Origin: a virus
Virus record (IMG/VR): IMGVR_UViG_3300034418_007185
Coordinates: 1-26,669 of that record
Strand: one strand, 5' to 3'
Length of the DNA stretch: 26,669 nt
Both the position numbers and the translations under genes were made by a program. The notes under the pieces are model-generated. The model did not search any database, had not been told where the DNA came from, and was given only the letters and a program-made list of their open reading frames with translations. Shown piece after piece: positions 14,064 to 17,947 of the stretch; positions within the stretch are counted from its first letter, which is position 1; each line of letters begins with the position of its first letter.

Positions 14064-14218
14064 TCGCTGTCTTTCGGTCGAGAAATCTTGTAGTCCTGCG
14101 GTGCAACGATACCGATCGAAGCCGCTGACTTCTTTGACCATTGAAGGTGGATCTCGATGGTCTTGTCCCCGTCGGTAATTTTAATACGTTCGCCTGGTTT
14201 GCGTGTAAGAATTAACAT
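14060..14218 (-). CDS. csrA: CsrA-family translational regulator
   Basis: 52 residues, easily missed because of its length. It begins MLILTRKPGERIKI, the nearly invariant CsrA start (strand 1 with Leu4 and Arg6), continues TIEIHLQWSKKSAASIGIVAPQ (strands 2-4, including IGIVAP matching the IGVNAP block) and ends YKISRPKD, where Arg47 corresponds to the RNA-contacting Arg44 of E. coli CsrA. CsrA dimers bind GGA-containing hairpins, often over ribosome sites, to repress or stabilise mRNA. The start is firm: AAGGAG lies 7 nt before the ATG. It overlaps the upstream gene by 7 nt and the zinc-ribbon gene by 4 nt, and is second in the early operon. Targets could be host or phage messages. Confidence 0.85.
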   Translation of the reverse strand: MLILTRKPGERIKITDGDKTIEIHLQWSKKSAASIGIVAPQDYKISRPKDSE

Positions 14219-14535
14219 TGATCAGCTCCTTGCTTTCGTGTTGTCCAAACTTTTAGTTCACGTCCGTGATTGCTTACTTGTTTCGACATAACTCGCAGTC
14301 CAGTCCACTCAAAATCGCGACTTCTGAAAACTGCTGCCATAGCCGGCCCCATTTCTCCGAGTGCTCGATCTCGCAGCTCCTCGGCAACGTCATCCGCTGT
14401 GACCGTCCCCTGTGATACCGCGATCTCCTTCGCGATCGTTCTGGCGATCCTTAATAGCTCCGGTCGCTTTTCCGCTGCTACCCTGATTCCGTGTTCCTTG
14501 AGTCGCTTTGACTCTTCCATGTCAAATGTTGTCAT
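14212..14535 (-). CDS. Small early protein of a recurrent phage type
   Basis: 107 residues. It has a helical first half (EESKRLKEHGIRVAAEKRPELLRIAR) and then ADDVAEELRDRALGEMGPAMAAVFRSRDFEWTG followed by SKQVSNHGRELKVW. I recall the second half from small phage proteins of unknown function that resemble winged-helix domains. It is the first gene after the early promoter and attenuator-like leader, with GAGGG 6 nt before its ATG. Being the first, it is the direct target of any leader control. Function unknown; DNA binding is a guess. Confidence 0.6.
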   Translation of the reverse strand: MTTFDMEESKRLKEHGIRVAAEKRPELLRIARTIAKEIAVSQGTVTADDVAEELRDRALGEMGPAMAAVFRSRDFEWTGLRVMSKQVSNHGRELKVWTTRKQGADQC

Positions 14536-14551
14536 TAGATGCCCTCAGTGC

Positions 14552-14639
14552 ATAAAAAAACCCCGGTTCACCTTAGTTGTCACACACCAGTGCCGGGGAA
14601 GGTCAGAGACCTGAATAGTTTGTAGGTCGGTGTGTGACG
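14552..14639 (-). promoter_or_regulatory. Leader RNA with interlocking stems and U-tract, possible attenuator or riboregulator
   Basis: Read on the minus strand, the leader starts close to ACGTCACACACC. Stem A: GTCACACACC (14638-14629) pairs perfectly with GGTGTGTGAC (14588-14579), 10 bp. A small hairpin AGGTC-TCT-GACCT (14612-14600) sits inside. Stem B: CCCCGG (14598-14593) pairs with CCGGGG (14566-14561), directly followed by seven Ts (14560-14554): an intrinsic-terminator layout, with a large loop. Order A-B-A'-B' means the stems interlock, giving an H-type pseudoknot or mutually affecting folds. The gene start follows 19 nt after the tract. Ligand or factor unknown. Confidence 0.55.
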
Positions 14640-14645
14640 TTGGCA

Positions 14646-14674
14646 AATTTACGGATCTGACCGACGCCAGTCAA
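14646..14674 (-). promoter_or_regulatory. Early operon promoter, sigma70-like
   Basis: Minus-strand -35 TTGACT (14674-14669), 17-bp spacer, -10 TAAATT (14651-14646). Upstream on the same strand, an A-rich run (about 14679-14700) is placed like an UP element. Predicted start about 14639, just where stem A of the leader begins. It is the best promoter-like sequence I see and lies between the tail module and the replication genes. Confidence 0.65.
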
Positions 14675-14676
14675 CA

Positions 14677-15108
14677 CTACTTTTTTTGTTTTTTTATTTT
14701 CTGGATCGCCTGATCTAGTAGCCTCTTCGCGATCATCCGGCGTCCGGTCTCTGGAATCTTTCGGAATAGCGGGATCAATTTGTCTGTCTGCTTCACAAGA
14801 TGCTCGATGATCTCGTTGTAGTGCTCGCCTTCACATCCGGCGATTCCCCACGCATTCATCTTCCGCTCGAAGTCGCGGCATCCGCATCCTTCTTTGTTCG
14901 CGATCGCCCAGGACGGTATCAATTCGGCCAGTGCTGTCCCGACGTTCTCCACCGGCTTCGGCAGCTGCGGTTGCTGCGTGCTTTTACGTTCCAGCTTGAC
15001 CGGCTTGCCTTCGATCGCGTTTCCGCTTCCGTCGTATGATATTCCGCATCGGCAGACGTTGATCTCTGGATGCAGTCTGCGAAATGTTGCACCGCACCGG
15101 CAGATCAT
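14677..15108 (-). CDS. Cys-rich hypothetical phage protein
   Basis: 143 residues. N-terminus has two CRCG knuckles (MICRCGATFRRL and VCRCGISYDG), a Pro/Gln/Lys linker follows, then GTALAELIPSWAIANKEGCGCRDFERKMNAWGIAGCEG, a GCGC...MN-x-WG-x-x-GC motif I recall from phage proteins of planctomycetes and others (function unknown). The C-terminus is very basic and ends KKQKK, encoded by the A-run serving as promoter upstream element. ATG overlaps the previous gene by 4 nt, so it belongs to the tail module. Probably a metal-binding accessory or minor virion protein; unproven. Confidence 0.55.
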   Translation of the reverse strand: MICRCGATFRRLHPEINVCRCGISYDGSGNAIEGKPVKLERKSTQQPQLPKPVENVGTALAELIPSWAIANKEGCGCRDFERKMNAWGIAGCEGEHYNEIIEHLVKQTDKLIPLFRKIPETGRRMIAKRLLDQAIQKIKKQKK

Positions 15109-17225
15109 GCTTGCACCGCAACTTGAAGGGTGTCGCCGCCTGCGTTGGTTGCTGACTTAGTGACTGAAGATTCCGTGTTCGGTATCGCGCTGGGTACGTT
15201 TGTAAATGTTATCTCTTTGCAGTCTCTTTGCCTTCTCAGGAAGAACGTCCAATAAGTAGGATTGGATTGCTGATACCATTGAATAAACCAAGTATCAGTT
15301 AAGCCAAGCGTCGTAGTTCCAGTGAACTCCATCCACCTATGGTACTTTGCACAGAAAAATCCATACAAGTCATCTTGATACAGTTCGTCCGCTGTACATG
15401 GACATCCGCAGGTTGCATAGTTCGGTCTTGTCGTCGATGCGTTTAATGCTGTGTATTGCATCGTCAATCCGGTACTTGCTGTAAACGTATCCGTCTCGGA
15501 TGCAATATAAAGCTGCAAGTTTATGAGATGCTGATCGCGAGTTGGGATGACATCAAACCCAGCACCACCGATCAGCGTGTAGTCAGGATCGGTCGGCCCG
15601 TAATAGGGAATTTTGACGATAGTCGCACTCTCAGTCAGATCGACATCAACTAGATTCCTGCTGTACGTGAAACCACAGTTAAGAGCAACATACGATGGTA
15701 TCGCGCTTCTAGTGAAATTGTAATCATCGGAAGGAGTCGCGGATGCTTTTGCGTTGGGATAAGCAAAGGCAACAGGCAAACTCCAGAAACTTTTTACGGT
15801 TTGCCCGAATTGAGTGCCTTCCTGGTGCATAATTGGCTTCAGCCATTTACGAACGATGGCCGGAAATGTTGTGTGCTGAATGTTTTTGTACACGAGCTGC
15901 GGATCGCCAGTACACCAAGCCGGCTCTGGGCATGGGACACTATCTGTGTTGTTTTGCTCTGTTAGCAGTGGCCCGCCGGATGGATAAATTCTCGAATTCC
16001 TCGCTGCGTTTAGATCTGCATCTATGTTTGCTTGTGTTTCTGCAACGATATTGCATGTTCCAGTTATCGTTAAAGTGTGAGCGACGGAATAACTCGCTGC
16101 ATTCAGTTCTGGCTCAACCCATTCGTATTGACGCCAGTCAACCAACCTATCTGCGTGTACCCAGTTATGTTGATCGCATTTGCCTAAATATTGCATCAGG
16201 CTACCGATTTGAAGTCCGCTGGCATAAACGCCTGTTTCGTGATAGTCGGTAATATCTGGCCGAGAGAAATACCCCGAAATATCATTCCACTTCATCAACC
16301 ACGCATTGTTACCATTCCACTGCGGATAATCAAAATCAACCTGATAGTCATAGGTGCATCCAGTTGACGCACATCCTCCAATCGTTCTGACATTGCCATT
16401 CATCGACGACGTCATTCGACTCGTAGCATTATTGTAGACGTAAGAGCTTGGGTCTTTGATCGTGTACTGTGCGGTTGTGCAAGGCGACGGAGTGTCGATC
16501 GGAATGTTAAAATCGACCGCGTTGATTGACGCACAGCCGATATGTCCTGCATGAACTTGTATCAAACCTATCTCAACTGGCTGGTTTCCTGTTTCGATGG
16601 TTATTGATACCGTCTGACCGCCAGCATCCGGCGGCAATTTGCTTGTGTTGACCTGCCCGCTATGGGAAGCAGGAACATCCGACCTAAAATCGGGATGGCG
16701 ATATCCAATGACTCCGCTGTTCATCGCAGCAGAATGAAATACTTCGTAAAACCGGTAAGAACAATAATTGTCGCCATAGAATGGTCGGACTTTATTTGGA
16801 GTTCGGTTTACTGTTTCAACATGATGCTGACTAAAGATCGTCGGCTCTTCATAAATGAAAGATGTATCGCCAGATTGGTAAATCTCATCATGATTGACGG
16901 CTCTAAGTACATTTGCCGCCTGTAAACTTTCACCGACTTTTATAACCAGACCTGGCTGCAGGTTCGTTACAGATTGCCCTGAATCATCTAAGACCTCCAC
17001 ATCGACGATGTAGTCAGTGCATCCTATAGGAACAGAAATGCTAATTGTTGTGTTAGCTGGAATCGTGTTAGTCGTTCCGGATATTCCCGAAACATACGAA
17101 GCGTTCCACAGAGTAGCATCGTAGCTAACGACACCACCGACAACATTCCTAGTCGGCAATGGCTTGACGACTATCAATTCGCAGCAACCACTAACACAGC
17201 AGCATTGAGGATTTCGACGGTTCAT
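15105..17225 (-). CDS. Large Cys-rich tail-tip protein
   Basis: 706 residues from the ATG at 17225, which overlaps the upstream stop as ATGA; a TTG at 17231 is the other option. It opens with a cysteine cluster (CCC-VSG-CC at about 8-15) and has about 21 cysteines overall, including GCASTGC, CPEPAWC and CGCPC followed by FFCAKYHRW. The bulk is beta-rich with many aromatic and Asn residues, typical of receptor-binding or baseplate proteins, and no enzymatic motif. Position just before the control region and after the tape-measure cluster suits a tail-tip or central fibre protein. Virion role inferred. Confidence 0.5.
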   Translation of the reverse strand: MNRRNPQCCCVSGCCELIVVKPLPTRNVVGGVVSYDATLWNASYVSGISGTTNTIPANTTISISVPIGCTDYIVDVEVLDDSGQSVTNLQPGLVIKVGESLQAANVLRAVNHDEIYQSGDTSFIYEEPTIFSQHHVETVNRTPNKVRPFYGDNYCSYRFYEVFHSAAMNSGVIGYRHPDFRSDVPASHSGQVNTSKLPPDAGGQTVSITIETGNQPVEIGLIQVHAGHIGCASINAVDFNIPIDTPSPCTTAQYTIKDPSSYVYNNATSRMTSSMNGNVRTIGGCASTGCTYDYQVDFDYPQWNGNNAWLMKWNDISGYFSRPDITDYHETGVYASGLQIGSLMQYLGKCDQHNWVHADRLVDWRQYEWVEPELNAASYSVAHTLTITGTCNIVAETQANIDADLNAARNSRIYPSGGPLLTEQNNTDSVPCPEPAWCTGDPQLVYKNIQHTTFPAIVRKWLKPIMHQEGTQFGQTVKSFWSLPVAFAYPNAKASATPSDDYNFTRSAIPSYVALNCGFTYSRNLVDVDLTESATIVKIPYYGPTDPDYTLIGGAGFDVIPTRDQHLINLQLYIASETDTFTASTGLTMQYTALNASTTRPNYATCGCPCTADELYQDDLYGFFCAKYHRWMEFTGTTTLGLTDTWFIQWYQQSNPTYWTFFLRRQRDCKEITFTNVPSAIPNTESSVTKSATNAGGDTLQVAVQA

Positions 17226-17947
17226 ACGCAAGGAGCCTGAATAGCCTCGAACTCGTTACCACACTGTATACACCATCCTTCATTGCCAGAAACTTGATCC
17301 GACATTATAGAAAGCGGATCGAGCAAATTGATCGTGTGGTAATCGTTGCCGCGTCTGTCTCTAAGCATCACCGGTGTTTCAGCAGGTGCGGCACTGGCTT
17401 GTCCGCAACGGTATCTCCATAGGTTCTGCTCGTGGCCCAGTAGCACCCACGCCCAATGCGTTTGCTCAGTTTCAGTTTCCTGAATGTTGAACGTCTCGAT
17501 TATTTTGGCGAACCCGCTGTAACTGCTTTTTCCATTCCACGGTTCTATTGGATCGAAAAAAGCGTGCGTGTGTTCAGAAGATGCCTCAGACTCTAAAACA
17601 AGCAACGCGAGACCATCGACAATTACTTTCCCGCGTTCACCATTAGGTATAGGCTCAACGCAAATTCCTATCTTGCTAATTTTCGTATGCCAGATTGGAT
17701 CTATTCCGACAAAGCCTATCGAATCAATCGCGTCGTAGACATTTGCTATGCTTCCGTCATAGGAACTCAAAAAAATCAGATTCCCAATTTCTCTTTGTGC
17801 TCCGGTATTGTTTAGCACCTCGACTACTGAATTGTTCAATCCAGACCAAATAGCAGGAAAGCCCACTGTTTGTTGAGGCAATCTATCCACTATCCGATTC
17901 ATGTAACTTGCAGTAATCGGATCGCCTGGATTGACTTTCAAATCCAC
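17222..17947 (-). CDS. Tail-tip associated protein
   Basis: 241 residues starting at GTG 17947, which has GGAG 7 nt upstream and begins just after the stop of the previous gene. A reading back to 18073 would lie over 120 nt of that gene and lacks support. The protein is beta-rich (VNPGDPITASYMNRIVDRL at the N-terminus, KVIVDGLALLVLE in the middle) and ends with GWCIQCGNEFEAIQAPC, a CxxC knuckle. The ITASYMNRI segment resembles starts of phage structural proteins. Overlaps the next gene by 4 nt. Likely virion component; specific role unknown. Confidence 0.5.
   Translation of the reverse strand: MDLKVNPGDPITASYMNRIVDRLPQQTVGFPAIWSGLNNSVVEVLNNTGAQREIGNLIFLSSYDGSIANVYDAIDSIGFVGIDPIWHTKISKIGICVEPIPNGERGKVIVDGLALLVLESEASSEHTHAFFDPIEPWNGKSSYSGFAKIIETFNIQETETEQTHWAWVLLGHEQNLWRYRCGQASAAPAETPVMLRDRRGNDYHTINLLDPLSIMSDQVSGNEGWCIQCGNEFEAIQAPCV

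Follow-up and report, generated by a model that had tools for sequence, protein, structure and literature searches.

A putative terminator leader with two interlocked stems at the late/early gene junction of four related phages

The late/early junction and its leader

The window, by which we mean the whole stretch of DNA analysed here, is IMG/VR record IMGVR_UViG_3300034418_007185, taken whole at 26,669 bases, and appears to be part of a tailed-phage genome. The minus strand carries all of its assigned genes. Those for the portal, major capsid and tape-measure proteins are upstream of the leader described below; downstream are those for RecT, SSB, an HNH endonuclease, a DNA methyltransferase and a replication initiator. 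These late and early gene sets are separated by a 141-bp gap (14536-14676), and within it lie a promoter and a leader of ~87 nt. The same promoter-leader unit was present in three further IMG/VR contigs (L002, L003 and L006), giving four phages in total. The features of the junction in the window are as follows.

14681-14700, minus strand: A-rich tract that may be a UP element; L002 has it, L006 has a shorter one and L003 has none
14646-14674, minus strand: sigma70-type promoter TTGACT-17-TAAATT, read from the sequence; similar arrangement in L006 and L003
14629-14638, minus strand: 5' arm of stem A, GTCACACACC; lies at the 5' end predicted for the RNA
14600-14612, minus strand: P2, AGGTC-TCT-GACCT within loop 1, a hairpin or palindrome with invariant arms (5 bp)
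14590-14598, minus strand: stem B 5' arm, CCCCGG with a CAC extension, from sequence comparison
14579-14588, minus strand: 3' arm of stem A, GGTGTGTGAC, located within the loop of the terminator
14572-14578, minus strand: loop 3, rich in A and 6-8 nt long across the four relatives
14561-14571, minus strand: stem B 3' arm, GTG-AA-CCGGGG, from sequence comparison
14554-14560, minus strand: U7 tract of the putative intrinsic terminator, read from the sequence
14212-14535, minus strand: first downstream gene (107 aa), also in L002 and L003; another gene takes its place in L006

The -35 hexamer TTGACT (14674-14669) and the -10 hexamer TAAATT (14651-14646) are separated by a 17-nt spacer, and a scan returned this pair as the sole minus-strand promoter candidate near the leader. 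Transcription is predicted to start at about 14641-14639 on the minus strand. Promoter-like hexamers also occur in L006 (TTGACT/TATCTT) and L003 (TTGCCT/TACTCT); a distance of 6-7 nt separates the -10-like hexamers TAAATT, TATCTT and TACTCT from the stem A arm that follows them in the window, L006 and L003, respectively, and the promoter thus moves together with the leader in these three phages.

The leader begins directly after the promoter and carries two stems interleaved in the order A-B-A'-B'. Stem A pairs 14638-14629 with 14588-14579 through 10 bp, all of them perfect. Stem B is a C/G stem closed by U7, with a 6-bp core (CCCCGG:CCGGGG) that joins 14598-14593 to 14566-14561 and that can be extended by pairing CAC (14592-14590) with GTG (14571-14569). 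In L003, stem B reads CCCCCG:CGGGGG and is followed by U6, so that both the window and L003 show a GC-rich stem with a U-run right after it, as expected of an intrinsic terminator. The terminator loop measures 18-26 nt and holds one arm of stem A, exceeding the usual, though not obligatory, 3-8 nt; because of this large loop, stem B was not called by a standard terminator scan. The U-tract precedes the first start codon by about 15-35 nt in all four phages, and in the window the 107-aa gene starts at 14535, 18 nt past the T-run. The predicted structure of the 107-aa product was of low confidence (pLDDT 63) and was given no weight.

The initial annotation had proposed the TTGACT-17-TAAATT promoter with its A-rich upstream element and two interlocked stems of H-type order. 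Both promoter elements are found on the minus strand, and the stems are present and show compensatory changes in the relatives. P2 did not figure in that description and is newly seen here.

Covariation and gene exchange among the four phages

The relatives were reached by different routes. L002 and L003 were found via a neighbouring protein, with the leader sequence left unused, whereas L006 was found by the stem pattern and its contig was reached again by protein searches. The sample of four contigs amounts effectively to three independent sequences, the leaders of the window and L002 being nearly identical. The four phages have their virion genes in common (capsid 90-98% identical) and share many early genes too. 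A covariance model located one leader copy per genome. No second copy was detected in the same genomes, as a match at L014:7609 has a broken stem A, and no tandem repeat of the element was present in 14200-14800.

Comparison of the window with L003, the most diverged leader, revealed differences at 6 of the 48 paired positions and at 17 of the 28 unpaired ones. The six paired changes make up three Watson-Crick swaps, two in stem A (A-U to G-C and C-G to U-A) and one in stem B (G-C to C-G). None of the 24 pairs compared between the window and L003 is broken, nor is any pair broken in the other sequences. Six random substitutions would leave all pairs Watson-Crick with a probability of about 2e-5, which rises to 0.0035 when G-U pairs are also accepted. 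This count was taken from a hand-made structural alignment with L003 stem B set as CCCCCG:CGGGGG; in the automatic alignment the register of L003 stem B is off by one, which leaves two unpaired cells in its table. The L006 leader also carries the A-U to G-C exchange in stem A. It is weaker evidence than L003, since the pattern that fetched L006 required parts of the stem A arms. In addition, L003 and L006 may share this change by descent, so that the independent events number three rather than four. The initial annotation had made its proposal depend on conservation and covariation of the stems in relatives, and covariation was found in both stems.

Coordinated changes of this kind would also be expected if the stem A arms and/or P2 were protein-binding operator sites in the DNA just past the promoter, with an incidental RNA fold, considering that the inverted half-sites of a dimeric operator would change in step. 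P2 has an operator-like character: its 10 arm positions are invariant where the linkers have diverged, its 3-nt centre varies, and there is no covariation in it among the four leaders. Judged by sequence, such conserved arms around a variable loop would suit a DNA-binding dimer. However, stem B ends in a U-tract, is not operator-like and is also fully swapped, and an RNA fits both the near-constant loop lengths and the way the stems interleave with a terminator. Furthermore, the P2 palindrome occurs once per genome, which led us to reject it as an operator shared by several promoters, and the stem A arms do not recur elsewhere in the window beyond chance. We therefore regard a DNA element as very improbable.

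The genes that border the leader are not constant. In L003 the gene upstream of it differs and in L006 the gene downstream, which means that the leader persists at a junction of gene exchange. Directly upstream of the leader in L003 lies a tyrosine integrase, with a tRNA-Met(CAT)-like 3' half after it (L003:1337-2640). The tRNA-like segment is probably an attP site, and this phage is probably a temperate one that integrates in a tRNA gene.

This location could suit a constitutive partial terminator, or insulator, that blocks read-through from late genes or from the host and passes a fixed early fraction, with the pseudoknot setting nothing but its strength. The assigned genes run one way with the leader at the late/early junction, the integrase and the probable, tRNA-like attP lie just upstream in L003, and mobile elements such as Tn916 are known to carry terminator insulators at their ends (PMC11658703). 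A pure insulator has no need, however, of its own promoter upstream of the terminator, and the conserved 10-bp interlocked stem and loop lengths exceed what it would require. Refolding, used to ask whether transcripts initiated upstream favour stem B, gave results that were inconsistent across the four phages; we also discarded it as a means of telling transcripts with their own start from read-through ones. Taken together, we consider the insulator unlikely.

When IMG/VR and 84,980 prokaryote genomes were scanned with patterns, the same three relatives emerged together with chance-level matches, whose model scores were below 18 bits. Within the 84,980 prokaryote genomes, the two patterns used, which tolerate limited sequence change, found no relatives, a result that does not imply that the class is rare. 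Among the named phages of INPHARED, nothing related to the leader region turned up, nor to those neighbouring genes that were tested. An element of the form AGGTC-TTYT-GACCTTCTTTATA followed by a C5/G5 terminator recurs in many other contigs (L022, L023, L025, L033, L037, L042, L046 and others). These elements are without stem A and were rejected as copies of the leader.

Folding of the interlocked stems

An interlocked arrangement of a 6-bp GC stem with T5, in which the loop pairs with an upstream arm, occurs at one site in the real window. Among 300 dinucleotide-shuffled windows, searched on both strands, none contained an interlock with a stem A of 8 or 10 bp; when stem A was reduced to only 6 bp, the same shuffles gave 8 matches. 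Nested folding alone was unremarkable (z -1.4), because it cannot show an interlocked pair.

With stem B extended by CAC:GUG, the loop lengths in the four phages are 30/30/28/30 nt for loop 1, 1/1/2/1 nt for loop 2 and 7/6/8/7 nt for loop 3. By a rough A-form helix estimate, crossing the 10 bp of stem A needs about 5.3 backbone links, for which the 6-8 nt of loop 3 suffice. A pseudoknot with both stems formed together therefore appears possible in this model, though tight. Stacking energies came to about -20 to -22 kcal/mol for stem A and -15.6 kcal/mol for stem B, and the penalty for a pseudoknot is 9-10 kcal/mol. As the best nested folds of the leaders reach -25.5 to -31.8 kcal/mol, the combined fold would match or exceed these folds in stability, on an estimate that is not a pseudoknot-aware partition function.

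The order of synthesis was considered as well. In each of the four phages, prediction has stem A complete (about 0.997) as soon as its 3' arm has emerged, while B' is still to be made. Under nested folding, the equilibrium between stems A and B differs among the four phages, and thus no single two-state switch is conserved in the simple nested model. The compact loops favour coexistence of both stems over a simple either/or switch. Attenuators usually alternate between two mutually exclusive folds; here the terminator stem is itself half of a pseudoknot and able to coexist with the other half. Tertiary structure, and not strand competition, could thus tune how strong the termination is.

A putative attenuator of the replication operon

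We consider it fairly probable that the leader is a pseudoknotted intrinsic terminator that acts in cis as an attenuator of the early, or replication, operon. In all four phages the stem B terminator lies between the promoter and the first gene without room for another promoter. Attenuation is favoured because this promoter is the only one nearby, and the position of the U-run so close to the start codon means that the first gene can be reached from the leader promoter only by read-through. Since paired mutations have preserved the interlock, the leader probably serves as a control element that restrains or meters out the replication genes.

Three functions had been offered in the initial annotation. 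Attenuation remains the best functional reading on account of the terminator position, with termination itself predicted. A riboswitch-like element gained no support, as the analysis yielded neither an Rfam match nor a ligand, and for a protein-responsive switch there was no positive evidence and no protein partner emerged. Its placement of the element before the replication operon agrees with the RecT, SSB and replication initiator genes downstream. That the leader gates the whole operon is plausible, and internal promoters further downstream are possible.

The proposed arrangement runs from the promoter through a compact H-type pseudoknot, with stem B as the intrinsic terminator, to the ribosome-binding site of the first gene. 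RNA polymerase would start just before stem A, and stem A would form as its 3' arm exits the polymerase, ahead of synthesis of the terminator 3' arm. Stem B and the U-tract would then decide between a stop, giving an RNA of ~87 nt, and continuation into the operon. The default would most likely be the pseudoknot with the terminator formed and the operon attenuated. Read-through could be set by the folding of the pseudoknot or by a factor engaging it, for which P2 would be the likeliest contact.

A self-contained fold with its own promoter and terminator could also describe a stand-alone small RNA, an ~87-nt pseudoknotted product acting in trans for which read-through is incidental. The downstream gene is exchangeable while the RNA stays, as seen in L006, and there is a precedent in IsrK of Gifsy-1, a small RNA of a prophage operon that ends at an intrinsic terminator with partial read-through downstream, so that short and read-through forms both exist (PMC4825925). 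Nevertheless, the next start codon lies within the same 15-35 nt of the terminator in four out of four phages, so the first gene needs read-through unless transcripts from upstream supply it, and the long complementary segments of the RNA are already paired internally. We hold a trans-acting RNA to be distinctly unlikely.

A more far-reaching form of the attenuator reading, to which we give little credence at present, is that the leader represents a new RNA switch class of phages, temperate ones among them, in which the fusion of pseudoknot and terminator senses the state of the phage or host and decides on expression of the replication genes. Sensing would then proceed via a protein at P2 or via an RNA pairing with the arms of stem A, and the switch would perhaps be part of immunity or of the choice between lysis and lysogeny. 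The element itself precedes a replication operon, stays unchanged while its neighbours are exchanged and is short enough for in vitro transcription tests.

To place the leader among known systems, we compared it with other termination-controlling RNAs. The preQ1-I, fluoride and ZTP riboswitches are pseudoknots that control termination, with aptamer and terminator competing for the same bases. The leader resembles them as a compact pseudoknot beside an intrinsic terminator; it differs in that the terminator stem is the second stem of the pseudoknot and that no metabolic gene lies directly downstream. Rfam 15 gave no match at the gathering score, its weak matches having E values of 0.7 or more, far below the cut-off, and a riboswitch of a known class was rejected on this ground. 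The lambda nut site consists of boxA followed by boxB with a pentaloop. P2 is likewise a short 5-bp hairpin near an early-operon promoter; unlike nut, it has a triloop and is followed by a terminator before the first gene, and no boxA like CGCTCTTA was present in the leader as read.

In phage HK022, putL is a structured ~70-nt leader RNA of the early operon that follows closely on the promoter and exerts its effect on termination in cis (PMC9378689). Our leader shares with it the early-operon position near the promoter and a first duplex near the 5' end of the RNA. However, put consists of two stem-loops with a minor-groove triplex and no terminator, and makes the polymerase resistant to distant terminators (PMC9378689). 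Its stems are successive and nested, whereas those described here are interlocked and one is the terminator, and identity with put RNA was rejected because of this difference in structure. In the seqA/CI RNA immunity of P4, premature termination keeps the replication genes off (PMC4825925). Both IsrK and P4 have a terminated leader with a read-through layout, which in our case is predicted from the sequence, but the leader differs from them in its H-type pseudoknot, and no second complementary RNA or seqA/seqC pair was seen. An RNA of the P4 CI, c4 or IsrK type was rejected given the lack of an Rfam match and of repeated stem A arms in the window beyond chance.

Several other identities were tried and set aside. 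For a leader peptide, L006 has a GTG frame from stem A' into the next gene; this frame is not conserved, being shifted by a 1-nt deletion in L002 and meeting a stop before the gene in L003. A type III toxin-antitoxin RNA, which has tandem pseudoknot repeats before a toxin gene, does not agree with a single copy without tandem repeat. Direct action of CsrA on the leader was rejected, as GGA motifs number zero in the window, L002 and L006, and one in L003.

Other observations concern the surrounding genes. A CsrA-like small protein is encoded in the early region of all four phages, with a Pfam CsrA match at E 4e-11 for L003 and matches by tblastn in the others. In the window, its frame is short, unlisted and overlaps the end of the 107-aa gene. 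Between early genes of L006, the segment L006:4583-5003 consists of low-complexity short repeats, seen as repetitive six-frame translations. The coordinates of the CsrA-like frames, and of a group of large proteins with a common start, are listed here.

Window about 14218-14078, minus strand; L003:3318-3512, plus strand; L006:816-1085, minus strand: CsrA-like frames
Window 15105-17231; L002:15-2411; L006:6307-8445: large proteins starting with an NRRNPQCCCD motif

The window copy of the NRRNPQCCCD-motif protein had no Pfam or PHROG match. The protein is strongly diverged in L002 while its neighbouring genes are conserved, a pattern like that of a receptor-binding or tail-tip protein.
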